DNA from: Limnohabitans curvus
GTDB lineage: Bacteria > Pseudomonadota > Gammaproteobacteria > Burkholderiales > Burkholderiaceae_C
DNA length: 64,000 bases
NCBI RefSeq assembly: GCF_003063475.1
Contig: NZ_NESP01000001.1
Coordinates: 1,116,001-1,180,000 of the forward strand
Reading direction: 5' to 3'
The notes under the pieces are model-generated. The model was not told the origin of the DNA and ran no database searches. It was given only the letters and a program-made list of their open reading frames with translations. Position numbers and translations under genes: made by a program. Below, piece by piece: positions 2,316 to 40,741 of this stretch (within the stretch, counting starts at the first letter, position 1; each line of letters opens with the position of its first letter).

Positions 2316-5192
<2,877 letters not shown>

Positions 5193-5302
5193 CTATAACT
5201 TTGACGCCTCTTTCGAGATCAAAAATTGTTTTCAAGGACTGATTTGACAGGTCTCTCACCTGTCGCGTTATGCCGTAAATATGAATAATCCTTCAATATC
5301 GC

Positions 5303-5612: not shown

Positions 5613-5631
5613 AATGAATCACTTAGACGTT

Positions 5632-5708
5632 TGGTGGGTCTGGTTGGAATCGAACCAACGACCCCTGCGTTATCAACACAGTGCTCTAACCAACTGAGCT
5701 ACAGACCC
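5632..5708 (-). tRNA. ileT: tRNA-Ile (GAU), first rRNA operon
   Basis: A 77-nt tRNA on the minus strand, identical to the one at 6-82: anticodon GAU, encoded CCA and a normal cloverleaf. It sits between 16S and tRNA-Ala of the complete rRNA operon. Confidence 0.97.
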
Positions 5709-5806
5709 AAGCCGGTCGCGACATCCTCAGCGAACTGAGTTAATCGACGACAACCTTCAAAACAACCGATAAGTGTGGACGTTCAATTTAGATTGCAGTT
5801 TTCCAG

Positions 5807-7341
<1,535 letters not shown>

Positions 7342-21486: not shown

Positions 21487-22869
21487 ATGTCATCCTCACA
21501 GACGCCTCTTTTCACCGCACTTGCTGACTCCATCGAGCGGCAGATTCGTGATGAGGCGTACAAGGTCGGCGAAAAACTCCCCTCCTTGCGCGAAATCGCG
21601 GCCTTGCGTAACTACGGGAAAAACACCGTCGTCGCCGCGTTTGAATTGTTGGTCGCCAGAGGCTTGGTCGAGCCGCGTCACGGCTCAGGTTTTTACGTCA
21701 AAGAAAGAACCGTCAAAGCCGAGCCCCACGACACGCAATCGCTGAACGGCGCCATGAACATCGTTTGGCTCATGAACATGCAGCTCAGGAACGAGCCGGG
21801 ACAACTGACCGTCGGCGACGCTTTTCCGCCCTCCCAATGGCTGGCCGGCGCGAGGCTAGACCGCCCACACCACAAAGTCGCACGCAGTGGTTTGGGCACC
21901 TTGTTCCGCTATGGCGACCGGCTCGGCTATGCACCTTTGCGTCAGCGTTTGGTGCGCCGCTTGGCAGACCAAGGCATTGACGCGCACCCGTCTCAAATTG
22001 TGTTGACCCACGGTGCCAATGAAGCCTTGGATTTGATCGTGCGCTACTTTGTGCCTGCGGGTGGAACGGTGCTGATTGACGATCCCGGCTATTACCCACT
22101 GATCGGCAAACTGCGCTTGGCAGGTGCCAACACGATTGGTGTGCCACGCTTGGCGGATGGTCCTGATTTGAAAGAGCTCGAGCGTCTTTTGATCACATGG
22201 CGCCCGCGCCTGTTTTTCACACAATCACTGGCCCACAATCCCACAGGCTCGGACCTGTCAAAGCAAAAAGCGCGGGCCATTTTGAAACTGGCCGAACAAC
22301 ACAATTTGTTGTTGGTTGAAAACGATGCGCTCAGCGACTTTCGAAGTGCCAGCCAAACACGCCTCTCGGCCTTGGACCAACTGGAGCGCACGCTGTACAT
22401 CAGCAGTTTTTCAAAGTCGCTGTCAGCGGCTCTGCGCGTGGGGTTTTTGGCCTGCAGCGCTGACATCGCCAACGACATTGCCAACATCAAAATTCTGACC
22501 AGTGTCAGCAGCTCTGAATATGCCGAACGCACGGTCGACACATTGCTGGCCGAGCGGCACCATTTGAAGTACCTCGAAGAGCTGCGCAGCAAACTGGAAG
22601 AAGCCACAGGCCGTGCTTACGATCTGCTGGACGATGTTGGCGCCACCATCTTTGTCAGGCCTGAGCGCTCGCTCTTTATCTGGGCCCAACTGCCCGGCGT
22701 CTCCGACACACAAAAGCTAGCGCACGCCATGCTGAACGAAAACATCGTGATGGCCCCCGGCAACATCTTCAGCGTGAACCCCAACAACATCTCACCTTGG
22801 ACACGCTGCAACCCCCATGCGGTGCTAGACCCCAGGTTCCGCCGCGCGCTCGATAAGCTGCTGGGCTAA
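21487..22869 (+). CDS. MocR-type regulator (GntR winged helix + aminotransferase fold)
   Basis: A 460-residue PLP-dependent transcription factor. Residues 1-75 form a GntR-type winged helix with VGEKLPSLREIA and EPRHGSGFYV. Residues 90-460 form a type I aminotransferase fold with NPTG (251-254), D280 and the PLP lysine K310 in SSFSKSLSAALRVGF. MocR proteins usually control genes nearby and bind repeated half-sites. The ligase, GST, HMG-CoA reductase and Liv transporter genes adjoin it, and a 49-bp palindromic element occurs twice in that cluster. I infer that this protein is their regulator. It overlaps the convergent ligase gene by 4 bases. Confidence 0.85.
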   Translation: MSSSQTPLFTALADSIERQIRDEAYKVGEKLPSLREIAALRNYGKNTVVAAFELLVARGLVEPRHGSGFYVKERTVKAEPHDTQSLNGAMNIVWLMNMQLRNEPGQLTVGDAFPPSQWLAGARLDRPHHKVARSGLGTLFRYGDRLGYAPLRQRLVRRLADQGIDAHPSQIVLTHGANEALDLIVRYFVPAGGTVLIDDPGYYPLIGKLRLAGANTIGVPRLADGPDLKELERLLITWRPRLFFTQSLAHNPTGSDLSKQKARAILKLAEQHNLLLVENDALSDFRSASQTRLSALDQLERTLYISSFSKSLSAALRVGFLACSADIANDIANIKILTSVSSSEYAERTVDTLLAERHHLKYLEELRSKLEEATGRAYDLLDDVGATIFVRPERSLFIWAQLPGVSDTQKLAHAMLNENIVMAPGNIFSVNPNNISPWTRCNPHAVLDPRFRRALDKLLG

Positions 22870-24518
22870 CGTGCGTTCGTGCGCTTCTTCCATGCGCGCA
22901 GATCGTGCATGCCCGTCAGGCCACGCGGGTCGATTCCTGGCGCAAAGATGCTGTGCTTTTGAATTTTCTGTGTGCCTGTCGTCGGAATGTGGTCGGCAAA
23001 CCAAACCCAACCCGGGGCTTTGAAATAGGCCAAGCCCGCACTGCAGTGGTCAAAAATCGAACGCAGCAACGCCTCCTGCGAAGCCGCTGACAACGCCTGC
23101 GCCGCATGCGGCTTCAGCACAATGCAAGCCAGCACTTCTTCTTCGCGCACCTCATCGGGCACAGCAATCACAGCGGTCTGCTCGACATCGGGGTGCGACA
23201 GCAACCAAGCCTCCACTTCGGCCGCGGCGATGTTCTCACCGGAGCGTCGGATGATGTTCTTGCGACGCTCCACAAAATGCAGCATGCCCGTGTCATCACG
23301 CGTCACGACATCGCCCGTGTGAAACCACCCACCTCGCCAAGCAGCCTCCGTGGCCGCTTCATCATCGAGATAACCTGAGAAAAAATCTTTGCGCGGCGTG
23401 CGCTCGGAATGGCGAATCACCATCTCGCCAGGCTGACCGTCTGGCACATCGCCATCCGCATCGTCCACCACGCGCACCTCAATGCCTGGCAAGGCATGCC
23501 CAAAAGCTCGGGTACCCACTTGGCGCGGCGGCATGTTGTCCACCAAAATGCGCACGTTTTCCGTCATGCCCCACAGCTCTAGCAATGGAAAGCCAAACCG
23601 CGCCTCGACTGCCGCATGCAAATGCGGCTCTACGCCAGCCCCCATACCAAAGCGCACGCAGTGGTCGCGCTCTTGGTCGTGAGGTGCTTGCGCATGCAAC
23701 ATTTGAATGATGACCCCCAAGTAATGCACGATGGTGGCCTGAGATTGGCGCACCTCGGTCCACCACCGTGAGGGCTGAAAACGATCGGACTGAATCTGGC
23801 AACTGCCCGTCAGCAGCACGGCATAGAACGACAAAATCGAGGCGTTCACATGAAACAGCGGCAAGGGGTTGTAAAGCCGTTCACCCGTTGCACGGAATGT
23901 GGCCAGCCCGCCGCGCGTGGCATACGCCTCGCCTGCTGCAAGTTCGTAACGATGCGACAACACACAGCCTTTGGGACGGCCTGTCGTGCCCGAGGTGTAC
24001 AGAATGCTCGCGGGGGTTTGCGCCTCTGGCACGTAGGTCTTGGCAGGGACCAAAGCAGGCGGCAAACCCGCGGCCCATTGTTCAAACACCACGTGTGGGG
24101 GTTGCCACGTGGCCTCATGGCGCGCGGCCTCCCAGTCAGCCACGCGGGCCGACAAGACCACCGCCAAATCAACGTGTGCATGTTCGATCAAATACGCCAG
24201 CTCACGCGGGCGGTAGTCTGGATTCACGGGCACGCAACAAACACCGAGCGCGTTCAACGCCAACTTGTGCAGCATGTGCTCCAGTCGGTTCTCCAGGAAC
24301 AGGGCCACGCGATGGCCAACGCCATAACCGGCTTCACGGTACTGCGCCATCAATCCATGCACCGCATGCGCAGCCTCGGCGTAGCTCAGCGAACGGCCCT
24401 GCGGGTCATAGGCACGCGCCGAATTCGATGGCGCAACCAACAAAGGGCGATCGGCATAGCAATGCGCGGCGTCAAAAAAAAATTCTCCGATGGTTGCGGT
24501 TTCACTCGGAACAATCAT
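22866..24518 (-). CDS. Acyl-CoA ligase, CaiC-like AMP-binding enzyme
   Basis: A 550-residue ANL-superfamily enzyme that activates a carboxylic acid to an adenylate and then to a CoA thioester. The P-loop SILYTSGTTGRPKGCVLSH (about 171-189), LLELWGMTEN (A5 region), GWFHTGDVVTRDDTG and RRKNIIRRSGENIAAAEVE are present, with the adenylation lysine in TGTQKIQKH near the end. The motifs resemble CaiC, the carnitine/crotonobetaine-CoA ligase, but the substrate is unknown. It is divergent from the GST gene, and the shared gap holds the palindromic element 24566-24614. It could feed CoA esters into the pathway served by mvaA. Confidence 0.85.
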   Translation of the reverse strand: MIVPSETATIGEFFFDAAHCYADRPLLVAPSNSARAYDPQGRSLSYAEAAHAVHGLMAQYREAGYGVGHRVALFLENRLEHMLHKLALNALGVCCVPVNPDYRPRELAYLIEHAHVDLAVVLSARVADWEAARHEATWQPPHVVFEQWAAGLPPALVPAKTYVPEAQTPASILYTSGTTGRPKGCVLSHRYELAAGEAYATRGGLATFRATGERLYNPLPLFHVNASILSFYAVLLTGSCQIQSDRFQPSRWWTEVRQSQATIVHYLGVIIQMLHAQAPHDQERDHCVRFGMGAGVEPHLHAAVEARFGFPLLELWGMTENVRILVDNMPPRQVGTRAFGHALPGIEVRVVDDADGDVPDGQPGEMVIRHSERTPRKDFFSGYLDDEAATEAAWRGGWFHTGDVVTRDDTGMLHFVERRKNIIRRSGENIAAAEVEAWLLSHPDVEQTAVIAVPDEVREEEVLACIVLKPHAAQALSAASQEALLRSIFDHCSAGLAYFKAPGWVWFADHIPTTGTQKIQKHSIFAPGIDPRGLTGMHDLRAWKKRTNAR

Positions 24519-24565
24519 GCAAGCTTCCTATCCATGTGCTTCGTCATTCATCGACGTTTCATCTA

Positions 24566-24614
24566 CTTTATCCAAACTGTACCCATCTCAAAAGGTACAG
24601 TTTGATAGAACAGT
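24566..24614. promoter_or_regulatory. Palindromic operator, copy 1 (probable MocR site)
   Basis: The 11-bp arms CAAACTGTACC (24573-24583) and GGTACAGTTTG (24594-24604) are separated by 10 bases. An extra half-site AACAGT follows at 24609-24614, in the same direction as TACAGT (24596-24601). The 49-base block matches 34876-34924 at 44 positions. It lies between the divergent ligase and GST genes, 48 bases upstream of the ligase ATG. On the minus strand ATAAAG at its left edge could be part of a -10. Confidence 0.7.
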
Positions 24615-24711
24615 GATGCGTTCGCATCCGATGCGGCAGCTGACGCGAAAGATAGCGCTATTTTCAGTTAAGGTGACGCGAACAACACGATCACCCCTCA
24701 AGGAAAAACCG

Positions 24712-25383
24712 TTGATTACTCTGTTTCACTGCATGAGCGCGCGCTCGTTCCGCCCCCTGTGGATGCTTGAAGAACTCGGCATACCGTATGCGTTAGAGAT
24801 GCTGCCGTTTCCGCCAAGGGCGCTGCAACGCAGCTACTTAGACGTCAATCCGCTGGGCACCATTCCCTTGCTGGTGGATGGCAACACACGCATGACCGAG
24901 TCGGTGGCCATCTGCGAATACTTGTGCGCACGGCATGCGCCCACACCACTGCAAGTCTCGCCCGACGAGGCTGACTTTGGGGCGTACTTGAACTACCTTC
25001 ACTTTGGCGAAGCGACGCTGACCTTCCCTCAAACCTTGGTGCTGCGCTATGCCCATTTCGAACCGCCCGAGCGCAGACAACCGAGCGTCGCCGAGGATTA
25101 CGCCAAATGGTTTTTGGCGCGCCTCAAAACGCTAGAACCCGTGCTCGCCAACCAGTCCTACCTGTGCGCCAACCGCTTCACGGCGGCCGATATCTCGGTG
25201 GGGTACGCCTTGATGTTGGCCACGCATCTTGGGCTCGCACCGCGTTTCACGCCCGCTGTTGCTGCGTATTGGGCACGCCTGCAGGAGCGTACGGGCTACA
25301 TCAAGGCGCTCGCGGCGCAGCAGCACGCCGCCCAAGCGCAAGGGGTGTCGGAGGTGCCCGCCCCCGACATTCGGCCCGCTTGA
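24712..25383 (+). CDS. Glutathione S-transferase family protein
   Basis: A 223-residue GST. I chose the TTG at 24712 because it gives MITLFHCMSARSFRPLW, a standard N-terminus, with AAGGA (24700-24704) at good spacing. Longer upstream reading would run through the operator and lacks conservation. The N-terminal thioredoxin-like domain (1-78) includes VNPLGTIPLLVDGN and ESVAICEYL; the helical C-terminal domain contains NRFTAADISVGY. Likely roles are conjugation or isomerisation of an electrophilic intermediate. It is divergent from the CoA ligase and shares its operator region, which suggests a place in the same pathway. Confidence 0.82.
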   Translation: MITLFHCMSARSFRPLWMLEELGIPYALEMLPFPPRALQRSYLDVNPLGTIPLLVDGNTRMTESVAICEYLCARHAPTPLQVSPDEADFGAYLNYLHFGEATLTFPQTLVLRYAHFEPPERRQPSVAEDYAKWFLARLKTLEPVLANQSYLCANRFTAADISVGYALMLATHLGLAPRFTPAVAAYWARLQERTGYIKALAAQQHAAQAQGVSEVPAPDIRPA

Positions 25384-25397
25384 TTGAGCTGCGACGT

Positions 25398-26696
25398 TCA
25401 GGCCCTGGCTGCGCCTTGACGAATTTCCTGCAAGAGCGCAAGCGCGCGGTCGGTTCGAACATCGCGCTCTTGCGCCATGCGGCGGGCAATGATGTCGACC
25501 TCTTCGCCAACAGCCCCGGCGATCACCGCCAAGTTTCGGCCATGCAACGCCATGTGCCCACGTTGGATGCCTTCCGTTGACAGCGCGCGCAAGGCCGCCA
25601 TGTTCTGCGCCAAGCCCACGGTGACCGCCACTTCGGCCAACTCTTGCGCCGATTGCACATTCAAAATTTTCAGCGCCACACGTGCCAGCGGATGCGTGCG
25701 TGTGGCGCCCCCCACCAAGCCCACAGCCATCGGCATTTCCAAGGTGCCCACCAAGGCGCCCGAACTGTCTTTTTCCCAATGCGTGAGTGAGGTGTAACTG
25801 CCCTTGCGGCAAGCCCACGCGTGGGCGCCTGCTTCAATCGCACGCCAATCGTTGCCGGTGGCCACAATCACCGGATCAATGCCGTTCATGATGCCCTTGT
25901 TGTGGGTGGCGGCGCGGTAAGGGTCCACCACGGCCAGCGTGTAGGCATCCAGAATGCCTTCGATGACTTCTTCACCTTTGTACTCGCTGGTACTCAACAC
26001 CTCCGGTGTGACACGCACACGCGCACGGGCCAAACGCAAATCAGCCAAGTTCGACAAGATGCGCAAGCAGACACGGCCACCCGTGATTTGCTCAACCAGG
26101 GGCGACACGGCTTCCGCCATGGTGTTGACGGTGTTGGCACCCATCGCATCGCGCACATCCACAATCAAATGCATCACCAACATGGGGCCGCGTGGGGTGT
26201 CGTCAAACACGTGGACGTCGATGTCTTTGCAACCACCGCCCAAACTCACGAGCAATTTGTCGCGGACATTGGCGGTGTCCAAGATTTGTTGACGCGCACG
26301 CAGCAACGCATGACGTGCGCCGTGCGGATCTGTCGCGCCCAACACTTGCACTTGTGCGCGCATCACAGGGCCGCTGGTCGAGGTTTGAAACCCGCCACAT
26401 TCGCGCGCCAGTCGCGCCATGTACGAGGCCGCTGCCACCACCGAAGGTTCCTCAACGGCCATGGGAATCAACACATCACGATCGTTGATTCGGAAATTTG
26501 CAGCCACGCCCAGCGGCAGCTCAAACGTGCCAATGACGTTTTCGACCATGCCATCTGCGGTGGCCAGCGGCAACGCCCCTGGCGTGCTCAAGAGCGCGAG
26601 GTCTTCCGCCGTCAAGCCCACGGAGGTCTGCAGTTGGCTCAAGCGCTGTGCAGGGGTCAAAGAACGAAAGCCAGGAAGACGTGAATCGAGTGTCAT
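25398..26696 (-). CDS. mvaA: Hydroxymethylglutaryl-CoA reductase, class II (degradative)
   Basis: A 432-residue soluble class II HMG-CoA reductase with no membrane anchor. It closely resembles the Pseudomonas mevalonii enzyme as I recall it, including [10 protein letters not shown] and the dinucleotide loop [17 protein letters not shown]. The four catalytic residues of that enzyme, E83, K267, D283 and H381, fall at the same numbers here (EEP, HNKG, NDW, RGHM). In P. mevalonii the enzyme works in the oxidative direction, mevalonate + CoA + 2 NAD+ to HMG-CoA, for growth on mevalonate. No HMG-CoA lyase (mvaB) is next to it here. Twelve bases separate it from the GMC gene upstream, so it should be the last gene of the Liv-GMC operon. 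Confidence 0.94.
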
Positions 26697-26708
26697 GAAA
26701 AATCCATT

Positions 26709-28388
26709 TCAAGGGTGAGTGGGCAAAGTAGCGGGGTCCTCGGCGGCAGGTGCCGCGTGGCCAAGGATCAAATCAGCAGCCTTCTCGGCAATCATCATGG
26801 TGGGCACCTGCGTGTTGCCCGAGGGCATGGTGGGCATGATCGAAGCGTCTGCAATGCGCAAGCCTTCTAGCCCGATCACACGCAGCTCGGGGTCAACCAC
26901 CGAGTCGGGTTGGTGGGCGGGACCCATGCGACATGTGCCGATCAAATGCCAAGCCGTTCCCCCACGCTGACGCGCAAACTCCAACAGTTGGGCATCGCTG
27001 GTCGCATCGGCAGGCGGAAACATGTCAACGTCGCGAAAACGGCTCAAGGCTTGACCGTGCAAGATGCGACGCGTCAAACGCAAAGCAGCCACCGTGGCCT
27101 CGCGGTCCGATGCTTCAGACAAATAGTTGGGCTGCACGATGGGCAGATCAAATGGGTTTGACGAAGCCAAGCGCACATGGCCGCGGCTTTGTGGACGCAT
27201 CAAATAAAAGCCCAAAGTCATGCCCGGAAAATCGTCCAACAATCCAGCCACGCCCTCCTTGTAGCTGCCGGGGCTGAAATGAAATTGCACATCCGCACGC
27301 GCCAGTGAGGCATCGGTTTTCCAAAAGGCGTAGGCCACCGAAGGGCTGATGCTGAGGATGCTCGGGCGGCGCATCAACCAGCGCACCACTTGACCCACGA
27401 GGCGCCAACCGCGCGCCATTTCATTGAGGGTGACCACACCGTGCACACGTGCGGACGATCGCACCATGTGATGGTCCTGCAAGTTGTCGCCAACACCTGG
27501 CAACGCATGTTGCACCGCAATGCCATGCGGCGAAAGTCGATCAGGCCGACCGATGCCAGACAGCATGAGCAACTTGGGCGTGTTGGCAGCCCCCGCACTC
27601 AGCACCACCTCGCGCCTGGCGTGCACTTTGTGCATCGGCGCATGCGCGCCCGCACTGTAGGCCACGCCAATGGCGCGTTTGCCATCCAGCAAGATGCGGG
27701 TGGCCTGCGCATGTGTCACCACCGTGAGGTTGGGGCGTTTGCGTGCAGGCCTTAAAAAAGCACGTGCGGTGCTGTAGCGGCGACCACGGTAAATCCATCG
27801 CTGGTAGTAGCCGGCCCCCTCTTGGCAAGCGCCGTTGTAGTCGGGGTTATCAGGAACACCCACCTCGCGCGCACTTTCAATGAAGGCATCGCACAAGGGA
27901 TGTCGCCAGTCGCAATCGGTGATGGGCAACGGGCCATCGGTGCCCCGATAGCGCGGATCGGCCACACCAATGCGACGTTCCGAGCGTTTGAAATACGGCA
28001 ACAGTTGCGCGTAACTCCAGCCTGTATTGCCTAACGCAGCCCAACCATCGTAGTCCTCGCGTTGGCCTCGGGTGTAGTTGAAACCGTTGATGGCACTTGA
28101 ACCACCCAAGGTGCGCCCTTGCGTGGTGGGGATGCCGCGCCCAGCCGTCCACTCGGTCGGCTCGGTCTTGATTTGCCACGTGTTGCGCGGGTCGTACGCC
28201 AGCTTGATGAACCCCGCAGGAATGTGAATGAATGGGTTGTAATCTGGTGGCCCGGCCTCTAGCAGGCACACGGTGTAGCGCCCGTCCGCCGAGAGCCGAT
28301 TGGCAAGCACACAGCCCGCAGCACCGCCGCCGACAATGACGTAATCAAAAACGCGAGCATCGCTCGTCGTTGATGCAGAGGCATTCAT
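26709..28388 (-). CDS. GMC-family FAD-dependent oxidoreductase 1
   Basis: A 559-residue glucose-methanol-choline oxidoreductase. It has the FAD dinucleotide fold DYVIVGGGAAGCVLANRL (about 15-32), the GMC signature around GRTLGGSSAINGFNYTRG and the C-terminal active-site region AWHLIGTCRMG, followed by GNTQVPTMMIAEKAADLI. Members oxidise alcohols to aldehydes with FAD, often passing electrons to quinone. The substrate is unknown. It is a tandem paralogue of the next gene upstream, with 17 bases between them. It lies in an operon with the Liv transporter and mvaA, suggesting oxidation of an imported alcohol. Confidence 0.87.
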   Translation of the reverse strand: MNASASTTSDARVFDYVIVGGGAAGCVLANRLSADGRYTVCLLEAGPPDYNPFIHIPAGFIKLAYDPRNTWQIKTEPTEWTAGRGIPTTQGRTLGGSSAINGFNYTRGQREDYDGWAALGNTGWSYAQLLPYFKRSERRIGVADPRYRGTDGPLPITDCDWRHPLCDAFIESAREVGVPDNPDYNGACQEGAGYYQRWIYRGRRYSTARAFLRPARKRPNLTVVTHAQATRILLDGKRAIGVAYSAGAHAPMHKVHARREVVLSAGAANTPKLLMLSGIGRPDRLSPHGIAVQHALPGVGDNLQDHHMVRSSARVHGVVTLNEMARGWRLVGQVVRWLMRRPSILSISPSVAYAFWKTDASLARADVQFHFSPGSYKEGVAGLLDDFPGMTLGFYLMRPQSRGHVRLASSNPFDLPIVQPNYLSEASDREATVAALRLTRRILHGQALSRFRDVDMFPPADATSDAQLLEFARQRGGTAWHLIGTCRMGPAHQPDSVVDPELRVIGLEGLRIADASIMPTMPSGNTQVPTMMIAEKAADLILGHAAPAAEDPATLPTHP

Positions 28389-28405
28389 GCGCAGTTCTTT
28401 CTGGG

Positions 28406-30049
28406 TTATTCAGCCATCGTTCGCGCAGCAGGCAATGCAGCCCGGCCCAGAATCATGTCTGCCGCTTTCTCCGCGATCATCATGGTGGCAGCGCATGTGT
28501 TGGCCGACACGATGCTCGGCATGACCGAGGCATCCACCACGCGCAGTCCCTGTAAACCATGGACGCGCAACTCAGGGTCCACCACGGCAGTGGGATCGCT
28601 GGCCAATCCCATGCGTGCTGTGCCGTTGAGATGGTAGGAAGACACGCCATAGCGTTTGGCAAAGTCCATGAGTTCATCGTCGCTTTGCACGTGCGCGCCC
28701 GGTAAGGTTTCTTTTGTCACGTACCCAGACAACGCGGACGTCGCCAACAATTCACGTGCCAAACGCATGCCGCCGAGCAACACCGCACGGTCTCGTTCAT
28801 CCGCGAGGTAGTTGGGCTGAATCACCGGCGGCGCCAACGGATCGCGCGAACGCAATGTGACGGTGCCTCGGCTTTCTGGGCGGTGTTGCCACACGCCACA
28901 CGTCATGCCCGGGTAGCGATCCAACATGCCCACATATCCCTCGCGGTAACTCGCCGGCGCAAACACGCCCTGCAAATCTGGGCGGTTCAACCCAGGTTGA
29001 GACTGCCAAAACCAATGCACCAGCGACGGGCTCACGGCCAAAATATTGGGCCGTCCTGCCAACCAGGCTGCAATCTGGCCCCACAAGCGCGGGGCGCGTG
29101 AAAGTTCGTTGATCGTGGTGATGCCTTTGACACCGGCCACAAAGCGAACAGAAAAATGATCGCTGAGGTTCGCACCCACACCTGGCAAGGCATGCACCAC
29201 CGGGATACCGAGACTTTGCAGTTGGTCCACCGGTCCCACGCCCGAGAGCTGCAACAGCTTGGGCGTATTGGTGGCGCCACACGAGAGCACAACTTCACGA
29301 CGTGCATGCACTTGCCGCACGTTGTGCTGATCATGGCCCTGCACATAGCGCACACCTGTGGCACGGGTTCCGTCAAACACCACCGAAGTGGCTTGCGCAC
29401 GTGTGATGATCTTCAGGTTAGATCGGCCTCGCACAGCGCGCAAATAAGTGCGCGCCGTGCTCATGCGCCAACGCCCCTCAATGCTGCGCTGGAAATAGCC
29501 CACACCGGCTTGTGTTTCCCCGTTGTAATCGGGATTGCGCGGCATGCCCAAGCCTTGTGCGCCAGCAATGAATTGTTCGCACAAGGGGTGAATCCACGAC
29601 AAATCACTGACCGGCAATCGCCCTTCGCGACCACGAAAACGGTCGTCGCCACCCGCATAGCGTTCATTGCGCTGAAAGTACGGCAGCACCTCGTCGTAGC
29701 CCCAACCAAGGTTGCCCTGCGCCGCCCAGCCATCGAAATCTTCACGTTGGCCACGGTTGTAGACCAAGCCATTCATCGAGGTCGAACCGCCCAACGTTCG
29801 CCCCTGCGGAAGGGGCACACGCCGCCCGTGGGTCCACTCGGTAGGCTCAGACGAATAGGTCCATGTGAATGCGGGGTCGAACAACACTTTGATGAACCCA
29901 GCGGGAATGTGCAAAAACGGATGCCAGTCAGCCGGCCCCGCTTCCAGCAAACAGACCGTGTGGCGACCGTCCTCACTCAGACGGTCCGCCAAGATGGCGC
30001 CTGCTGCGCCACCCCCAACGACGACGAAGTCAAAACTATCTTCAGTCAT
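28406..30049 (-). CDS. GMC-family FAD-dependent oxidoreductase 2
   Basis: A 547-residue paralogue of the adjacent GMC enzyme. FVVVGGGAAGAILADRL near the N-terminus binds FAD. GRTLGGSTSMNGLVYNRGQR carries the GMC signature, and SSYHLNGTARMG contains the C-terminal catalytic histidine region. I place the start at the ATG at 30049 (MTEDSFDFVVVGGG); a TTG at 30058 would overlap the livF stop. Substrate unknown. Two similar but not identical GMC enzymes side by side suggest different stereoisomers or successive alcohols of the same pathway, or a heteromer. Confidence 0.86.
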   Translation of the reverse strand: MTEDSFDFVVVGGGAAGAILADRLSEDGRHTVCLLEAGPADWHPFLHIPAGFIKVLFDPAFTWTYSSEPTEWTHGRRVPLPQGRTLGGSTSMNGLVYNRGQREDFDGWAAQGNLGWGYDEVLPYFQRNERYAGGDDRFRGREGRLPVSDLSWIHPLCEQFIAGAQGLGMPRNPDYNGETQAGVGYFQRSIEGRWRMSTARTYLRAVRGRSNLKIITRAQATSVVFDGTRATGVRYVQGHDQHNVRQVHARREVVLSCGATNTPKLLQLSGVGPVDQLQSLGIPVVHALPGVGANLSDHFSVRFVAGVKGITTINELSRAPRLWGQIAAWLAGRPNILAVSPSLVHWFWQSQPGLNRPDLQGVFAPASYREGYVGMLDRYPGMTCGVWQHRPESRGTVTLRSRDPLAPPVIQPNYLADERDRAVLLGGMRLARELLATSALSGYVTKETLPGAHVQSDDELMDFAKRYGVSSYHLNGTARMGLASDPTAVVDPELRVHGLQGLRVVDASVMPSIVSANTCAATMMIAEKAADMILGRAALPAARTMAE

Positions 30050-30054
30050 AGCGT

Positions 30055-30780
30055 TCAATGCTCACCTAAATAAGCCGCACGAATGCGGGGGTCTCGACGC
30101 AGCTCAGCGCCCGTGCCTTCGATGGTGATGTGCCCGGTCTCCAACACGTACGCACGATCAGCAACGGCGAGCGCTTGGTTGGCCATTTGCTCGACCAGCA
30201 AGATGGTCACGCCGCGTGACTTGAGCGCACGGATGACCGCAAAAATTTCTTTCACGATCAACGGCGCCAATCCGAGCGACGGCTCGTCCAACAGCAGCAG
30301 CTTAGGCTGCGCCATCAGCGCCCGTGCAATGGCCAACATTTGTTGCTCACCGCCGGACATGGTGCCCGCGGGTTGCTCTTGACGCTCACGCAAGCGAGGG
30401 AAGGTTTCAAATTGCGCTTGCAAGTCGGCTTCCAACTCAGCAGCACTGGCCTTGCGGTGGTACGCCCCCAGCAACAAGTTGTCGCGCACGGTTTGATCAG
30501 GGAACACCTGTCGCCCCTCGGGTGACTGAGCCACGCCAAGCGCCACCCGCTGATAACCCGGCATGCGCGTGATGTCGTGGCCTTCAAACATCACACGGCC
30601 AGCAGCCGCTGGCTCCAAACCCGAAATGGTTTTCATCAAGGTGCTTTTGCCTGCGCCATTGCCGCCAATGATGGTGACCACCTCGCCCGCATTCACGTGG
30701 ATGGAGACACCCTTGAGGGCTTCCACCGCCCCATAGCGGACCTCAAGATTTTCAATTTTTAACAAGGGGGTATCAACCAT
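30055..30780 (-). CDS. livF: Branched-chain amino acid type ABC transporter ATPase LivF
   Basis: A 241-residue ABC ATPase of the LivF group. Walker A GGNGAGKST is at about 39-47, the signature MSGGEQQ is in the middle, Walker B is LLLDEPSLGLAP, and the family-typical end YLGEH is present. It drives uptake with LivG, LivH and LivM. Its start overlaps the fused livMG gene by 8 bases and GMC gene 2 begins just beyond its stop, so transporter and enzymes share a transcript. The name gives the family; in this cluster the substrate may not be an amino acid. Confidence 0.9.
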   Translation of the reverse strand: MVDTPLLKIENLEVRYGAVEALKGVSIHVNAGEVVTIIGGNGAGKSTLMKTISGLEPAAAGRVMFEGHDITRMPGYQRVALGVAQSPEGRQVFPDQTVRDNLLLGAYHRKASAAELEADLQAQFETFPRLRERQEQPAGTMSGGEQQMLAIARALMAQPKLLLLDEPSLGLAPLIVKEIFAVIRALKSRGVTILLVEQMANQALAVADRAYVLETGHITIEGTGAELRRDPRIRAAYLGEH

Positions 30781-32596
30781 GGGTCGCTCCTGTCACCACA
30801 TCGTTTGCATCATCCGTCTCATCCTCGGTCCCAAGGTAGGCGGCGATCACACGGGGGTTACTTTGAATCTCAGCGGGCTTGCCCTCTGCAATCTTTTGGC
30901 CATAGTCCAGCACGATGACATGGTCTGAAATGCGCATGACCAAGTCCATGTGGTGTTCAATCAACAAGACCGTGATGCCTAGGTCGCGAATGCGGGCAAT
31001 CACGTCCACCAAGTCACGGGTTTCATGTGGGTTCAATCCGGCCGCTGGCTCATCCAGCAACAGCAACCGTGGGTGGGTCGCCAAGGCGCGTGCAATTTCC
31101 ACGCGACGCTGCACGCCATAGGGCAAGCTGCCTGCACGCTCATACGCTTTGTCGGCCAAACCAAGGAACCCCAAAATTTGCAGCGCTTCTTCTGTTGCCT
31201 GAATTTCGCTACGCGCAGAAAGCCGCGAGCCAAACAAGCAAGACCAAAACCCCGCCTCCATGTGGCGATGCAAGCCAACCTTGACGTTGTCCAAAACGGT
31301 CATGTCAACAAACAAACGCAGGTTTTGAAACGTGCGCGCCAAGCCTAAGCGCGCCACACCGTTGATAGACATGCCCACCACATCTGTGCCATTGAAACGA
31401 ATCGTGCCGCGATCAGGTTCGACCACGCCCGACAGGATGTTGAGCAAGGTGGTCTTGCCAGCGCCATTCGGACCGATCAAGGAATGCACATGGCCTGTGC
31501 GCAGCGTCAGGTCCACGTCGTTGGTGGGAACGACACCACCGTAGGCTTTGTAAAGGCCCTTGGCCTCTAACAAAGGGCGGTTGGCTTCTAAGGCTTCGTT
31601 CGCATGCAAACGCCAAGGACTCAGCGCCGAGGGCAAAGCAGGGTGACGCGCCAACCCCGGAAAAATTCGAACGGCAATCGAACGCAGCCAAGCGGACAGG
31701 CCGTCTGGCATGGCGTACAACGCAAACAACAACAACGCACCATAGGTGAAATGTTGCACATGGGGCCAACGCGCCAAGAAGTTGTCGAGCAAGGTCAACA
31801 CCACCGCGCCCAGCAAAGGCCCATACACCGAACTGCCGCCAAACAAGACGATCAACAAGAAGAAGATCGACATGTTGAAGGTGATGAAGTCCGAAGAAAT
31901 AAATTGGTTCTGCTGCGCAATCAAAGCGCCAGCAAAGCCACAAGTGACGGCGCTGATGACAAACGCAATGACCTTGATTCGGTAAACGCTCACCCCCACG
32001 CTTTCAGCCGCCACTTCAGCTGTGTTGACGGCCATGAAGGCGCGTCCATATTTGCCGTTCAACAAACTGCGCAGCATCAGATGTGTGACGATGCACAACG
32101 CGGACACCAGCCACACCCAGTCGCGGTCATCCAGAGACTGGCTGCCCCAGGTCGGCGGCACCACACCATAGATACCGGCCTGACCGCCAAACACGTCTTG
32201 CCACTCGGCGACAACCTTTTCAGCCACGATGCCAAAACCAATGGTCACCATCGCCAAGGCGGGGCCCTTGACACGCAAGGCTGGCAAAGCGATGAGCGCA
32301 CCAAACAATGCGGCGACGACACCCGCCGCCAAAAATGCAACCCAAGGATTCCAACCGTGGCGTGCCGTCAGCACCGCCACTGTGTATGCGCCAACGGCAA
32401 ACAAGCCGGCATGGCCCAGTGACTTCTGTCCTGTGTGTCCCACCAACACATTCAGGCCAGCAGCGGCCAGGTAGTTCACGCCAATCATGAACATGATCTT
32501 CAGGTAGAAGCCGTTATTTGTGAGTTGTGGGCCAATGACGATGGCAGCCACCACCAACATCAAACCCATCCAGTGTGTGTTGTAAGCCTTCATCAC
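30773..32596 (-). CDS. livMG: Fused LivM permease - LivG ATPase
   Basis: A 607-residue two-domain transporter subunit. Residues 1-300 are a LivM-type permease with about nine hydrophobic segments, including LVGHTGQKSLGHAGLFAVGA and the loop GLNVLVG. Residues 340-607 are a LivG-type ATPase with Walker A GPNGAGKTT (375-383), RVEIARALATHP and LLLDEPAAGLNP. In E. coli these are separate proteins; fused versions occur in some proteobacteria. The ATG overlaps the livH stop. With livF, livH and livK it makes a complete importer. Confidence 0.9.
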   Translation of the reverse strand: MMKAYNTHWMGLMLVVAAIVIGPQLTNNGFYLKIMFMIGVNYLAAAGLNVLVGHTGQKSLGHAGLFAVGAYTVAVLTARHGWNPWVAFLAAGVVAALFGALIALPALRVKGPALAMVTIGFGIVAEKVVAEWQDVFGGQAGIYGVVPPTWGSQSLDDRDWVWLVSALCIVTHLMLRSLLNGKYGRAFMAVNTAEVAAESVGVSVYRIKVIAFVISAVTCGFAGALIAQQNQFISSDFITFNMSIFFLLIVLFGGSSVYGPLLGAVVLTLLDNFLARWPHVQHFTYGALLLFALYAMPDGLSAWLRSIAVRIFPGLARHPALPSALSPWRLHANEALEANRPLLEAKGLYKAYGGVVPTNDVDLTLRTGHVHSLIGPNGAGKTTLLNILSGVVEPDRGTIRFNGTDVVGMSINGVARLGLARTFQNLRLFVDMTVLDNVKVGLHRHMEAGFWSCLFGSRLSARSEIQATEEALQILGFLGLADKAYERAGSLPYGVQRRVEIARALATHPRLLLLDEPAAGLNPHETRDLVDVIARIRDLGITVLLIEHHMDLVMRISDHVIVLDYGQKIAEGKPAEIQSNPRVIAAYLGTEDETDDANDVVTGATHG

Positions 32597-33510
32597 ACTT
32601 TCTCCACAACACGTGTGCCCAGCAAGCCTTCAGGCTTGACGACCAGCACAATGATGATGAGCAAGAAGATGCTGATCTCTCGCATCTCTGCTTGCCACAG
32701 ACCCACCATGGCTTCCATGATGCCCAACATAAAACCACCCAACATGCAGCCACGGGCGTTCGAGAGTCCGCCCACGATGGCAGCTGAAAACGCCTTCAAC
32801 GCAATCAGCAAGCCCATGAAAACCGAAGCAGTGGTGATCGGTGCAATCAGCAAGCCAGCAACACCTGCCAAGCCCGAACTGATCACGAAGGCGAGCACGA
32901 CGACGGCGCCCACGTTGATGCCCATCAAGGTCGCGGCGTTCTTGCTGTGCGCGACGGCGCGAACCGCTTTGCCGATCTTGGTTTTGCGCATCACCAAGTC
33001 CAACCCCAACATGATGCAAATGCTAAAAACCAGCACCAAAATTTCTTGTGGCAGCACACCCGCGCCACCGATGCGAATGACATCGCTCCCCAATATAGAA
33101 GGCACCACCATGGCGGCAGGCCCCCAAACGGCCAAGGCCGCGTTTTGAATGATGATGCCAAAGCCCAGGGTACTCATGACCCAAGCCAAACCGCCACCAC
33201 CGACAAAAGGTCGCACGGCGGTGTAGTACAGCAACACACCCAGCGCACCGAGAACGGCCATACAAATCACGAGCGCAGCGATCATTCGCCACACCGTCAC
33301 GTCTTCAGGCGTCAACGCGCCATGGATGTCTTTGCCAGACAACAACAGCATGGCAGACACCGCAACCACCGTACCCACCGACAAGAACTCGCCTTGTCCA
33401 AAGTTGAAGGTTTTCGTGGTGTTGTGGGTGATGTTGAAACCGACGGCGACGAGCGCGTAAATACCGCCCAACGCGAGTCCGCTCAGCAAGGCTTGCAAGA
33501 TAGCAACCAT
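32593..33510 (-). CDS. livH: Branched-chain amino acid type ABC permease LivH
   Basis: A 305-residue inner-membrane permease with about eight hydrophobic segments. The N-terminal LALGGIYALVAVGFNITHNTTKTFNFGQGEF region and the central VMRKTKIGKAVRAVAHSK loop, which contacts the ATPase, are typical of LivH. It pairs with the LivM half of the neighbouring fusion. Its stop overlaps the start of livMG by 3 bases. The binding protein gene lies 84 bases upstream. Confidence 0.9.
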   Translation of the reverse strand: MVAILQALLSGLALGGIYALVAVGFNITHNTTKTFNFGQGEFLSVGTVVAVSAMLLLSGKDIHGALTPEDVTVWRMIAALVICMAVLGALGVLLYYTAVRPFVGGGGLAWVMSTLGFGIIIQNAALAVWGPAAMVVPSILGSDVIRIGGAGVLPQEILVLVFSICIMLGLDLVMRKTKIGKAVRAVAHSKNAATLMGINVGAVVVLAFVISSGLAGVAGLLIAPITTASVFMGLLIALKAFSAAIVGGLSNARGCMLGGFMLGIMEAMVGLWQAEMREISIFLLIIIVLVVKPEGLLGTRVVEKV

Positions 33511-33594
33511 GGGGAAACTTTCTAAGAGCGCCGAGCGCTCCCCCAGTCACACAAGGACCCGAGGGAAACGCAAGGCGTCAGGGGAACAGCAAAA

Positions 33595-34794
33595 TTACTT
33601 CTTCAAATCCGCTGCAGTGAGCGACTTTGTCACAGCATCTTCGTAGCGCACCACCGTCGTGCCGTTTTTCCACTTGGCCAAGTAGAAGTCAGCGACGCCC
33701 AAGCCTTCATGGTCGGTCTTGGAGAACGGCTTGTTGTAGGTCTTGATCACGCCTTCAACGTTGTTCACGTTTTCCAGCGCGGCAGCCACTTTCTCGCCGT
33801 CGGTGGTACCTGCTGCCTTCATGGCCGCAGCCAACAACATCACCGAGTCATAAGCCTGAGCCGAACAAGGGAACGTGGTCAACGTGGGGAAGTTCTTGCG
33901 CACGCGCTCACCCAAAGACTTGGTCTTGGCATTGGAATCTTCGGTCGTCGAAGCAGCCAAGATGAGGTGGTCGGCCATCTTTGGACCGGCCAAGCGAGGC
34001 AACAACGAGCTCAGGTTGCCCCAAGTGCCGAGCGTCGTAGGCAGGTAGTTGATTTTTTCCATGCTGCGCAACACGTTGGCCGCGCCGTCTGCAATGCCAT
34101 AGATGATCACAGTGTCTGCGCCAGCATCGCGAATTTTGGTCAACTGCGAGGTGATGTCTGTGTCCTTGGGGCCGTATTTTTCAACAGCCACAGGCTTGAC
34201 GCCATGCAATGCCAACACTTCGGTGGCGTCTTTGATACCACCTTGGCCATAACCCGTGGAGTCAGCCAAGATCGCGATCTTGTGACCCTTTGAGGCTTTC
34301 GCGGCATAAGCGGCCAACAAAGCCACTTGCTCGCGATCCACCATGGAGACGCGGAAGAGGTAGTTCTGTGCTTCTTTGGCGTAGCGCGTCGTGATCTCTG
34401 TCGAGGTCGCAATTGGCACCACCACAGGAATCTTCTTTTGTTGCGGCAGATGCAACCAAGCCAACGCGTTGCCCGAGTTGGCGGGGCCGACGATGGCTTG
34501 CACTTTCTCGTTGTCAATCAGTTCGGTGACGTTTTGAATGGCCTTGGGGGGCGTGCCGAGGTCATCACGCACCACACCCACCACCTTACGGCCAAGAATG
34601 CCGCCAGCCTTGTTCAAATCTTCAATCGCGGCTTCAAAACCCCAGCGTCCGGCAATGCCCAGCTCGGCAACGCCGCTGGCAGATTGGTCTGCTGTGTAGC
34701 CAATCTTGATCACATCTTGCGCATGTGCACTGATGGCACATACCGCCGTCAGGGCAATGGCCGCGGCCTTGGCTATCTTATGAATCATTCTCAT
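33595..34794 (-). CDS. livK: Periplasmic ABC substrate-binding protein, LivK type
   Basis: A 399-residue secreted binding protein. I place the start at 34794: MRMIHKIAKAAAIALTAVCA is a clean signal peptide ending AHA, and AGGAG sits 7 bases upstream. An upstream start would add an unlikely 34-residue leader. The mature protein begins DVIKIGYTADQSASG and has the two-lobed type I periplasmic binding fold, with DDLGTPPKAIQNVTELI and VPVVVPIATSTEITTRY. It captures the substrate for the Liv importer encoded downstream. The operator copy at 34876-34924 lies about 80 bases upstream, so this is the promoter-proximal gene of the liv-GMC-mvaA operon. Confidence 0.9.
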   Translation of the reverse strand: MRMIHKIAKAAAIALTAVCAISAHAQDVIKIGYTADQSASGVAELGIAGRWGFEAAIEDLNKAGGILGRKVVGVVRDDLGTPPKAIQNVTELIDNEKVQAIVGPANSGNALAWLHLPQQKKIPVVVPIATSTEITTRYAKEAQNYLFRVSMVDREQVALLAAYAAKASKGHKIAILADSTGYGQGGIKDATEVLALHGVKPVAVEKYGPKDTDITSQLTKIRDAGADTVIIYGIADGAANVLRSMEKINYLPTTLGTWGNLSSLLPRLAGPKMADHLILAASTTEDSNAKTKSLGERVRKNFPTLTTFPCSAQAYDSVMLLAAAMKAAGTTDGEKVAAALENVNNVEGVIKTYNKPFSKTDHEGLGVADFYLAKWKNGTTVVRYEDAVTKSLTAADLKK

Positions 34795-34875
34795 GTCTTG
34801 TCTCCTGGTTGACGTCACTGCTACTTGAACCGCACGCGCTCGCCACATAAGCGGCGTGAACACGTGTGCGTCACA

Positions 34876-34924
34876 CTTTATACAAACTGTACCCACCCAG
34901 AAAGGTACAGTTTGATAGAACAGT
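34876..34924. promoter_or_regulatory. Palindromic operator, copy 2 (upstream of livK)
   Basis: The arms CAAACTGTACC (34883-34893) and GGTACAGTTTG (34904-34914) carry the same extra AACAGT half-site (34919-34924) as the copy at 24566-24614. Only 5 of 49 positions differ, four of them in the spacer. On the minus strand TATAAA at the livK-proximal edge is a good -10 candidate. It lies about 82 bases before the livK ATG. Confidence 0.7.
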
Positions 34925-35260
34925 TAGGACGTGTCCCCAATGCGATGTCACGCACTTTGGGACTCCAAGAGGTCGGTGCCGTGCGCTTGACACGGTCAAC
35001 GAACGATCCAGAAAATAAAAAAGCCTCAGTGCGAACACTGAGGCTTTCTCGTTTTGGTGGTGGAGTATAGCAGACTGGCAAACACTCATCCCGCAGGAGT
35101 GAGGCGTACCGTCCTGAAATTGCCCCTCAATGAGGAATACGGGGTGCATCCAAGGATCTGCTCTAACCACCTCACTGGTTCGGGAAATTCCGGCCCAGTG
35201 CGTGTGTCGACTGCTTGCTCCAACCTAGTGGCGCTTACGTAGATCTGATTCTATCCCCAT
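34925..35260. other. Gene-free stretch at the catabolic-operon / metal-island boundary
   Basis: No convincing gene was found. It contains the strong hairpin at 35023-35044 and, on the minus strand, an isolated -10-like TATACT (35063-35068) just before it. A small CACTC/GAGTG repeat lies near 35085. This is where the GC-rich core gives way to the lower-GC metal island, but no integrase site, tRNA or insertion sequence is visible. Confidence 0.5.
35023..35044. terminator. Strong stem-loop, probable bidirectional terminator
   Basis: The perfect 9-bp stem GCCTCAGTG/CACTGAGGC has the 4-base loop CGAA. On the minus strand it is followed by TTTTTTATTTTC, and on the plus strand by TTTCTCGTTTT. It would end transcripts coming from the small zinc-finger/PIN genes at 35261-36698. 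Confidence 0.8.
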
Positions 35261-36732: not shown

Positions 36733-38127
36733 TCAACCGACTTCATTGATTGAATGTGGAAACTGCAGGGAAAATCGTGTTCTACCTTGATTAGATGTGA
36801 CCGTGGCTGTACCTCCATGGATTTCAGCGATAGCTTTCGTAATTGATAAGCCCAATCCGGCACCATCAGATTCTGGGTGAGACCGTGCCGGATCAGCCCG
36901 AAAGAAGCGATCAAACAAACGAGGAAGTACTTGTGGATCAATCTCTGAACCGGTGTTTTCAACCCGGACCTCTGTAACAGACCCCTTATCAACGACTGCC
37001 ACATCCACCTTCCCGTCTTCTGGAGTGTGTCGCAATGCATTCGAAAGTAAATTGCTAACAGCGCGGCGGAACATTAATCGGTCCCCAAGAATTTCACCAT
37101 CTCCATACGTCGTCAGCGAAATTCTCTTTTCCTCAGCTACTGCTTCGTAGAACTCACACAAGGACAGAATTTCGTGAGCTGCAGAAAATTTTTCTTTGTT
37201 TGGCAACTCAACACTGCGCTCTGTTTTCGCCAAAAAGAGCATGTCAGATACCATCCGACCCAAGCGCTGTAACTCTTCGGCGTTTGACGCCAAAATTTCA
37301 CGGTAAGTCGCTACATCGCGTTTAGTTGAAAGTGTTACCTGCGTTTGCGTGAGCAGGTTACTGATTGGAGTACGCAACTCATGAGCCAAATCTGAAGAAA
37401 ATTCGGACAAGCGCTGAAAATCACTCTGCAACCTATCTAACATTTGATTGAGCTCACGGGCCAAATCAGCCATCTCAATCGGGACTGCATCTACAGGCAT
37501 GCGCTCTTGCAGTTGTTGACCTGAGACGCCTGCGGCCCTGGTCTTCATGGCTCGCAGAGGTGCCAATCCTTGATGAGCTGCCACCCAGCCTAGAAAACCG
37601 CTTACAAGCGTTGCCATGACAGCGTAAATTGCTAAGCTTCGCTCCAATTCTTTCAAAAATTCCTGATGGTGCTCAGCATCAATCGCCAAGGAGACGTCGA
37701 AGTCCACATCCTGGATGTACTTGGCTTTCGCTTGAAATTCAATCGCATGAAATTCAGTTGCATTGTCCTTCCAAGTTTTTAACTCTCTCCCATCCTTCCC
37801 ATTCATAGATTGCCGAGAGCTTTCAGGAGGATTAAATCCCTCAGATTGAAATAATGTTTCACCGCTTGAGCTTCTAATTAAAGCCCAAAGTCCATGGTGG
37901 TGACTCAATGATTCACCAAGCCGCAAACGGGCATCATCCGATGAATTGGCATCTGAAAGAATGCCTTCAATTAGCTGCCTTTTGTCAGCCAACGCAACAC
38001 GATCAAGGTCCAGAAAGTGGCGATCTGCTGCAGTCATTAATATCCAACCGAGACCCAAAACAACAGTAGCAGCAACCAATGTAAAAAAAATGGTTAGACG
38101 GCTCGTCAGTGAAAAGCTTTTAAACAT
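36733..38127 (-). CDS. cusS: Heavy-metal sensor histidine kinase (CusS/CopS type)
   Basis: A 464-residue membrane kinase. Two membrane segments (about 10-32 and 165-185) flank a periplasmic sensor of roughly 130 residues. A HAMP linker follows, then the phosphorylated H249 in LAHELRTPISNLL. The N-box NLLSNALRHTPEDG and the G-box GAGLGLSITKAI near the end show an intact ATPase domain. Length and layout match CusS/CopS. It starts immediately after the stop of the response-regulator gene, so the two form one operon. It probably senses periplasmic Cu(I) or Ag(I) and switches on the adjacent plus-strand copper genes. Confidence 0.88.
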   Translation of the reverse strand: MFKSFSLTSRLTIFFTLVAATVVLGLGWILMTAADRHFLDLDRVALADKRQLIEGILSDANSSDDARLRLGESLSHHHGLWALIRSSSGETLFQSEGFNPPESSRQSMNGKDGRELKTWKDNATEFHAIEFQAKAKYIQDVDFDVSLAIDAEHHQEFLKELERSLAIYAVMATLVSGFLGWVAAHQGLAPLRAMKTRAAGVSGQQLQERMPVDAVPIEMADLARELNQMLDRLQSDFQRLSEFSSDLAHELRTPISNLLTQTQVTLSTKRDVATYREILASNAEELQRLGRMVSDMLFLAKTERSVELPNKEKFSAAHEILSLCEFYEAVAEEKRISLTTYGDGEILGDRLMFRRAVSNLLSNALRHTPEDGKVDVAVVDKGSVTEVRVENTGSEIDPQVLPRLFDRFFRADPARSHPESDGAGLGLSITKAIAEIHGGTATVTSNQGRTRFSLQFPHSINEVG

Positions 38128-38811
38128 CTAATGCGTCTCCGGCGCTTCAAGTACATAGCCCATTCCGCGTACTGTTTGAATCAGCTTGACTTCTTGCCCC
38201 TCATCGATCTTCACTCGCAAACGACGCATGGCTACTTCAATAACATTGGTGTCGCTGTCAAAGTTCATATCCCACACTTGTGATGCAATCAACGATCTCG
38301 GCAACACTTCCCCCTGTCTGCGCATCAGGAGTTCAAGCAGGCCGAACTCTTTTGCGGTTAAGTCAATTCGCTTTCCGGCACGAGAAACTCTCCGCCGTAG
38401 CAAATCTAATTCCAAATCAGCCACCCTCAAGGTCGTATTTTCAGTTCCACTTTTACCTCTGCGCAGAATGGTTCGGACTCGAGCCAACAACTCCGCAAAA
38501 GAGAAGGGTTTGACTAGATAGTCATCCGCCCCTAGCTCCAGCCCCTTGACTCTGTCCTCGACCTGATCTTTTGCGGTCAGGAACATGGCAGGCATGTTCA
38601 AGCCACGCTTACGAAGAGCCTCCAAGACCTGCCAGCCGTTGAGCCCTGGCAGCATCACATCCAGTATTACGAGCTCGAAGTCACCCTGCTCCGCCAAATG
38701 AAGACCATCGATTCCCGTTTGCGCCAGTTCCACTAAAAATCCGGCTTCGCGTAAGCCCTGCCTCAGATATTCGCCTGTTTTGGGTTCGTCCTCGACGATC
38801 AGAATTTTCAC
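38128..38811 (-). CDS. cusR: Heavy-metal response regulator (CusR/CopR type)
   Basis: A 227-residue OmpR-family regulator. The receiver domain has the acidic pocket VEDEP (6-10), phospho-acceptor D51 in [14 protein letters not shown], and the conserved lysine in [10 protein letters not shown]. The C-terminal winged helix includes [20 protein letters not shown] and [15 protein letters not shown], as in CusR/CopR. It is the first gene of the cusRS operon, divergent from the copper gene operon. An imperfect palindrome (38873-38890) in the shared gap is a likely binding site. Confidence 0.9.
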
Positions 38812-38872
38812 AACGGTCCTCCTTCAGTGCGCCAGTCTGTAGTGTGACAAGTTTTATGAAGCCTGACACGAA

Positions 38873-38890
38873 GATAACAAATATGTAATC
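38873..38890. promoter_or_regulatory. Putative CopR/CusR palindrome, copy 1
   Basis: GATAACA-AATA-TGTAATC, a 7-4-7 palindrome with one mismatch to GATTACA-N4-TGTAATC. It lies between the divergent cusR and the copper operon, 62 bases from the cusR start. The same pattern recurs at 49853-49870 before the cus efflux genes. Confidence 0.55.
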
Positions 38891-38965
38891 AGACAGACGC
38901 ATTGTTGTCAGGCGCTGCTCTTCAGAATCGCATCCTATCAATCAATGGATGACCAAGAGACACTC

Positions 38966-39292
38966 ATGCCACATCGAACATCACTGTTCAGCGTAATGCT
39001 TTCTGGTGCCCTGGCATTTCTGTCAGTTGCTGCAAGTGCCCAAGCAGTAGCGCCAACTCCGCCCTCGACATCAGAAAGCAGGTTGCCTACAAAGTTGCAG
39101 TACAAATCGGCAATTGGCGGCTATCAAGCCTATGCTGATCAAGAGGTTTTATCCTGGCGCGAGGCTAATGATCGAGTAGGACGCATAGGAGGTTGGCGTG
39201 CATACGCAAAAGAGATTTCCGCAGGTCAACCAGCCTCAGAAGCGCAAACTTCCCCAGACTCGCACGCAACTCATCATGGAGGCGAAAAATGA
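38966..39292 (+). CDS. Small periplasmic protein preceding the TolC-type gene
   Basis: A 108-residue protein with a signal peptide (start taken at 38966, MPHRTSLFSVMLSGALAFLS, cleaved near ASAQA). The mature part contains KLQYKSAIGGYQAYADQEVLSW and a short His-rich end (HATHHGGEK). The His end hints at metal binding. I do not recognise a named family; I have an impression that similar small proteins precede copper-efflux OMF genes elsewhere. The stop overlaps the next gene's start (ATGA), so the two are translationally coupled. Confidence 0.7.
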   Translation: MPHRTSLFSVMLSGALAFLSVAASAQAVAPTPPSTSESRLPTKLQYKSAIGGYQAYADQEVLSWREANDRVGRIGGWRAYAKEISAGQPASEAQTSPDSHATHHGGEK

Positions 39293-40725: not shown

Positions 40726-40741
40726 TTCAAAGGACCACGCG

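Follow-up and report, generated by a model that had tools for sequence, protein, structure and literature searches.

The analyzed window, a 64,000-nt stretch of the Limnohabitans curvus genome (contig NZ_NESP01000001.1, positions 1,116,001 to 1,180,000, forward strand), contains two nearly identical 49-bp blocks at 24566..24614 (copy 1) and 34876..34924 (copy 2), which are considered below as predicted promoter-operators of a nearby transcription factor of the MocR subfamily. The mocR gene (21487..22869, + strand) starts 18 bp behind a rep-type helicase gene and encodes an N-terminal GntR winged helix (Pfam GntR, 51 bits, cut-off 27) followed by a fold-type I aminotransferase-like domain (Aminotran_1_2, 127 bits, cut-off 19.7), the domain composition that defines the subfamily. 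It is convergent with a gene for an AMP-binding acyl-CoA ligase (22866..24518, − strand), the ends of the two genes overlapping by 4 bp; the ligase reached no NCBIfam cut-off among the matches listed, which include a below-cut-off match to crotonobetaine/carnitine-CoA ligase. Copy 1 precedes this ligase gene and is followed by a divergent glutathione S-transferase-like gene (24712..25383, + strand). Copy 2 precedes a one-direction run, livK-livH-livMG-livF-GMC-GMC-HMGR, extending on the − strand from 34794 down to 25398. The run opens with a gene for a livK-type substrate-binding protein (33595..34794, start at 34794 or 34788 as read from the start codons and AGGAG), continues with livH, a livMG fusion, and livF of a branched-chain-type ABC transporter (30055..33510; livMG assigned by Pfam, the best NCBIfam scores of livF and livH being below the cut-offs) and two choline-dehydrogenase-like oxidoreductases of the GMC family (26709..30058; 546 and 524 bits against the choline dehydrogenase subfamily, cut-off 605), and closes with a class II, degradative-type 3-hydroxy-3-methylglutaryl-CoA (HMG-CoA) reductase (HMGR; 25398..26696). 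The first-pass annotation had placed the copies upstream of the two transcription units near mocR, which agrees with these gene positions.

Direct comparison of the two blocks gave 44 identical positions out of 49, as the first-pass annotation had stated, and the similarity does not extend into the flanks. Each block contains perfect 11-bp arms (CAAACTGTACC and GGTACAGTTTG) separated by a 10-nt spacer, with AACAGT at one side, so that the arms and the additional half-site claimed earlier were found in both copies. The parts of copy 1, all read on the − strand, are box1 (24609-24614, ACTGTT), box2 (24594-24601), box3 (24576-24583), and a −10-like element TAAAGT (24565-24570); those of copy 2, on the same strand, are box1 (34919-34924), box2 (34904-34911), box3 (34886-34893), and again TAAAGT (34875-34880). 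In a seeded search the two blocks form the top direct pair of 49-mers in the window at a separation above 8 kb, and the other two listed pairs with at least 38/49 matches (both 38/49, offset 1685) lie within the two GMC genes; no pair at 34/49 or above was found in three Markov-1 simulated sequences. Perfect 11-bp inverted repeats with loops of 3-20 nt gave nine overlapping matches at five places in the window, two of which are the block copies, whereas 50 Markov-1 simulations averaged 0.28 matches and never exceeded 3. Just beyond copy 2, at 35012-35055, there is a terminator-like inverted repeat of 20 nt (loop of 4 nt, 85% complementarity) with one A-rich and one T-rich end.

The distribution of the element was analyzed in 399 genomes of the same family, evenly drawn from a larger group and including the window genome, with thresholds of E <= 1e-110 for MocR orthologs and E <= 1e-80 for HMGR. 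The strict pattern matches 23 of the 399 genomes, and a reversed control pattern 5 (as read from the result table). In 17 of the 23 the site separates divergently oriented mocR and HMGR genes, in three it lies before livK, and in two (the window genome and G080 from the same genus) before both the ligase gene and livK, whereas the remaining match (G279) has none of the mocR, HMGR, livK, and ligase genes present and looks like chance. Four further genomes of the same genus showed no element and no match to MocR or HMGR at the thresholds. MocR is encoded in 43 genomes and HMGR in 46, with 42 genomes containing both; the corresponding table (42, 1, 4, 352) yields a Fisher probability of 5e-51, which is not corrected for relatedness. 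In the 47 regions retrieved around the MocR and HMGR matches, a looser criterion of at least 15/18 core positions identified 45 sites outside the genus, distributed over 39 loci that each represent a different genome. Thirty-three of these sites lie before HMGR, 11 before livK, and 1 was left unassigned (L141 of G129), being adjacent to mocR with a distant HMGR 3 kb off. Of the 41 MocR-containing genomes outside the genus, 39 possess the element, 38 of them before HMGR and/or livK, and G129 beside mocR with no such target gene within reach; with the window genome and G080 counted, the element occurs in 41 of 43 MocR genomes. In G301 the site belongs to the HMGR locus (L158) and not to the mocR locus (L122).

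A weight matrix was trained solely on the 45 sites from the 39 genomes outside the genus, the window copies being excluded. On the − strand of the window it scored 51.7 for copy 2 and 49.3 for copy 1, the next unrelated place reaching −15.1; the same two places scored 5.4 and 2.7 on the + strand, and no score above −1.0 was reached in 30 Markov-1 simulated windows. The score is not a fully independent statistic, since the sites have a common ancestry. Both copies are thus directed, copy 2 at livK and copy 1, because of its − strand, at the acyl-CoA ligase gene. The glutathione S-transferase-like gene, which an automatic label had made the target of copy 1, was rejected for the same reason, as the operator orientation does not suit it.

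The consensus read toward the target gene is aCTGTtcc..caAACTGTACCT.t....a..GGTACAGc...ccTAcAGT. In it, box2 (ACTGTACC) repeats box1 (ACTGTt) in direct orientation at a distance of 13 bp and is inverted in box3 (GGTACAGT), from which a 10-bp spacer separates it. The CTGT of box1 is found at a constant place in all 45 sites (39 loci), so that the constant layout and spacing typical of a MocR operator within an orthologous group were observed throughout, the N10 spacing having been fixed by the search itself. This combination of two direct boxes and one inverted box is the commonest operator layout in the main text of a reconstruction of MocR regulons (Suvorova and Rodionov, 2016; PMC5320631), and the earlier suggestion that the arrangement fits MocR regulators is borne out in this respect. 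The last hexamer of the sites is TACAGT (32), TAGAGT (3), TAAAGT (3), TAAATT (2), CAGAAT (4), or, with a one-base shift, ACAGTG (1). Forty of the 45 sites thus have the form TAnAnT on the side of the target gene, whereas none has it at the mirrored position, which gives the element a direction; the hexamer retains T-A..A.T rather than the half-site CTGT, and we therefore read it as a probable −10 element. Its nearly fixed distance past box3 implies that the inverted repeat covers the −35 region and the −35/−10 spacer. The box2-box3 spacer, where a −35 element would fall, is largely unconserved.

Based on sequence comparison, we consider the blocks to be promoter-operators of the neighboring MocR, with a probability of about 0.85 for this operator and regulon assignment. 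The probable MocR regulon proposed in the first-pass annotation is supported by the 39 of 41 genomes described above; what the present analysis adds is the directionality of the blocks, their −10-like part, the extension of the regulon to the family, and a probable pathway. Several observations weigh against the assignment. The matrix scan revealed no operator upstream of mocR in the window, and autoregulation of mocR there was accordingly rejected. The arms are perfect in just 8 of the 45 sites, the differences falling mostly at the two outer positions; the HMGR-side sites of L124-L127 have CAGAAT in place of TAnAnT, and in L141 this motif is displaced by one base. Two MocR genomes contain no site at the looser criterion: in G142 the mocR-HMGR gap has one half-site and the contig stops inside mocR, the livK side therefore being missing, whereas in G188, where the MocR is 49% identical, the best matrix score is 4.6 and no HMGR was found. 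In the closest relatives outside the genus (L117-L121 and L156) the mocR-HMGR gap holds a single ACTGTACC in 6 of 6 loci examined, so that control of HMGR is in doubt there. Two MocR relatives from a separate search set (L026 and L027) have no CTGTAC in the 260 bp upstream. Finally, other MocR systems have amine-type ligands, and the mevalonate pathway offers no obvious compound of this kind; in addition, each of the 46 aligned MocR proteins has Leu or Phe where the solved aminotransferase 2egy has a tyrosine, a residue that we presume to belong to the pyridoxal 5'-phosphate (PLP) pocket.

Explanations of the blocks other than operators were considered along with the assignment. Two near-identical palindromic copies that agree even at 6 of 10 spacer positions might be members of a dispersed repeat with no regulatory role, resembling repetitive extragenic palindromes or miniature inverted-repeat transposable elements. 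Many unrelated copies in the genome, the outcome that would have been expected of such a family, were excluded: the palindrome (22 fixed bases, up to 3 mismatches) occurs at only 2 places in the 3.03-Mb genome versus 0 for the reversed control, and a reduced pattern of 16 fixed bases with the same tolerance occurs at 4 places, the extra two at exactly 3 mismatches (control 33). Moreover, the same promoters carry the element in 38 of the 39 loci with sites outside the genus while their spacers vary, which makes the repeat hypothesis hardly credible; the shared spacer letters suggest that one window copy may stem from duplication of the other. An RNA hairpin, either a terminator or a leader structure, is equally improbable. 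It would account for the perfect 11-bp arms of the window copies; however, these arms precede the −10-like element and are not followed by a T run, no Rfam model matches the blocks at the gathering threshold, and the 45 sites show 67 one-arm or unpaired changes and no compensatory ones. The complete lack of compensatory changes favors protein binding over RNA pairing, and the hairpin was ruled out on this ground and by the Rfam result.

The identity of the binding protein and that of the pathway are separate questions. Since binding by MocR is a prediction and the window mocR lies behind rep without an operator of its own, the element might belong to another regulator; this is improbable, given that a MocR ortholog is present in 22 of the 23 strict-pattern genomes, that the half-site type and layout suit MocR, and that the matrix detected no site in the retrieved loci of the four HMGR genomes lacking MocR above the threshold (G116, G047, G294, and G359). 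Three of these four encode a 42%-identical MocR with a different helix-turn-helix sequence approximately 3-4 kb away. A less remote, if still unlikely, alternative keeps the operator and changes the pathway, HMGR then acting on a branched substrate other than mevalonate, which might bear an amine and be sensed by MocR. The choline-dehydrogenase-like GMC enzymes, the crotonobetaine/carnitine-CoA ligase match, and the liv-type transporter would all be at home in such a regulon. Across genomes, however, it is HMGR that constantly accompanies mocR, and in several loci of 12-20 kb (e.g., L129, L132, L135, and L154) no genes of the window are present besides this pair. Among the neighbors of two small mocR-HMGR clusters (L131 and L147; 10 proteins, 3 of them with no Pfam match), no family common to both was found.

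Under the operator assignment, MocR would recognize CTGTACC-type half-sites within each 49-bp promoter-operator. A MocR bound to box2 and box3 would most likely hold the promoter closed, and its movement to box1 and box2 may assist RNA polymerase, the promoter itself lacking a conserved −35 element. Passages of the regulon reconstruction cite work in which the apo form of PdxR prefers direct repeats and the PLP form inverted repeats (PMC5320631), and the identical layout suggests a similar switch here. We regard this two-state model as tentative, its chances being slightly below even. The lysine K310 is present in 45 of the 46 aligned MocR proteins, the remaining row being a gap, and the aspartate D280 in all 46, an alignment that includes one protein at 49% and three at 42% identity. 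We take these residues to be the PLP-binding lysine and aspartate, partly on the basis of the alignment to aminotransferases.

The predicted target genes probably serve mevalonate catabolism: their products would bring in the substrate, and HMGR would then act oxidatively, converting mevalonate to HMG-CoA. The HMGR of the window scored 418 bits against the model of the degradative class II enzymes (TIGR00532, cut-off 260), and 708 and 659 bits against the PDB sequences of the solved bacterial enzymes 6dio and 1qax, the latter of which we take to be the Pseudomonas mevalonii enzyme. Genes for two candidate HMG-CoA lyases lie at other places of the genome (scores of 442 and 323 bits against a cut-off of 246). 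According to passages of a 2026 preprint, the HMGRs of Burkholderia cenocepacia and P. mevalonii use NADH alone, and its reference list contains a title on the kinetics of an oxidative HMGR from B. cenocepacia (PMC13370337); a passage of a root-exudate transcriptome study ascribes an induced HMG-CoA lyase of beta-rhizobia to isoprenoid catabolism (PMC5789663). On account of the reductase class, the NADH-using relatives, the lyase candidates, and this isoprenoid assignment, we infer that the likeliest route converts mevalonate to HMG-CoA and this in turn to acetoacetate and acetyl-CoA; what the GMC enzymes, the ligase, and the transporter would contribute to it is a matter of guesswork. In a broader proposal, PLP-binding MocR proteins that form a group across the family would control the breakdown of mevalonate/HMG-CoA; as this pathway has no evident amine, their aminotransferase-like domain would then sense a non-amine ligand (mevalonate, mevaldate, or an acyl-CoA product) with an altered PLP pocket (Leu/Phe for Tyr). 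We regard this proposal as speculative and at present rather doubtful. If the operator and regulon assignment is right, it provides a regulon for a MocR group to which no function has been assigned, as well as a candidate sensor of mevalonate- or HMG-type compounds, possibly usable as a biosensor, and it bears on the turnover of isoprenoid precursors by environmental bacteria.

The regulon appears to be new in the light of the literature searched, whereas the regulator family and the type of element are already known. Five NCBIfam models of MocR groups matched the window protein below their cut-offs (PdxR, 206.5 versus 320 bits; YczR, 178 versus 487; EhuR, 150 versus 480; rhizopine MocR, 150 versus 650; GabR, 80 versus 600). 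The MocR regulons in the main text of the 2016 reconstruction, including the PdxR, GabR, TauR, and ectoine groups, share with the present one the GntR winged helix, the aminotransferase-like domain, and the TGT core of the box, and differ from it in their targets, which here are HMGR, an acyl-CoA ligase, GMC oxidoreductases, and a liv-type transporter (PMC5320631). That main text gave no match for HMG, livFGHMJ, branched-chain, or CTGTACC; its unassigned groups include dehydrogenases and transporters, and an unnamed group in the supplementary tables may overlap with ours. The YczR regulons, as described in parts of Milano et al. (2016; PMC4944035), differ in targeting YczE-type membrane proteins. 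In the literature searched, subscription papers and supplements being outside its scope, no MocR was linked to HMGR or mevalonate control, and no MocR regulator was found in the mevalonate-regulation literature, including passages of PMC5789663, PMC13064465, and PMC13370337. The closeness of the window enzyme to 1qax is a likeness to the mva operon of P. mevalonii. The regulator of that operon is MvaR, which is not known as a MocR protein.

The genomic arrangement varies across the family. Most of the relatives examined have one operator between divergent mocR and HMGR, and six loci (L123-L127 and L146) have two sites; in the genus of the window, mocR lies behind rep, HMGR closes the liv run, and the ligase gene has its own operator copy. 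Half-sites of the same type extend to distant MocR relatives with 32-39% identity: in 9 of 9 loci of one search set (Kiloniella, Phyllobacterium, Crenobacter, Pseudoteredinibacter, and others) there are 1-4 CTGTAC half-sites within 260 bp upstream, where 0.04-0.18 are expected from the locus rate, in layouts unlike those of the window.

Some minor features of these loci and of the window are also recorded. The Kiloniella MocR relatives (L047, L048, L051, L053, and L054; 32-34% identity) have 3-4 CTGTAC half-sites, arranged in a different array, before their own genes. Distant HMGRs (53%) are accompanied by a different MocR (42%) 3-4 kb away in L160-L162, and in L160 CTGTAC-like half-sites stand in another order immediately upstream of this mocR gene. 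The HMGR of G003 (L121, 7989-9232) is in two overlapping pieces, as from a frameshift or an assembly error. Positions 9-7341 of the window (− strand) are occupied by two rRNA operons in tandem and in the same direction, in the order 16S (5807-7341), two tRNAs, 23S, 5S, a further 16S (181-1715), and a tRNA, the second 16S unit following approximately 370 bp on. Adjoining the regulon, the region 36733-42154 encodes a two-component system of the heavy-metal type (histidine kinase and response regulator, both above the cut-offs) and a multicopper-oxidase-like protein that scored below its cut-off.

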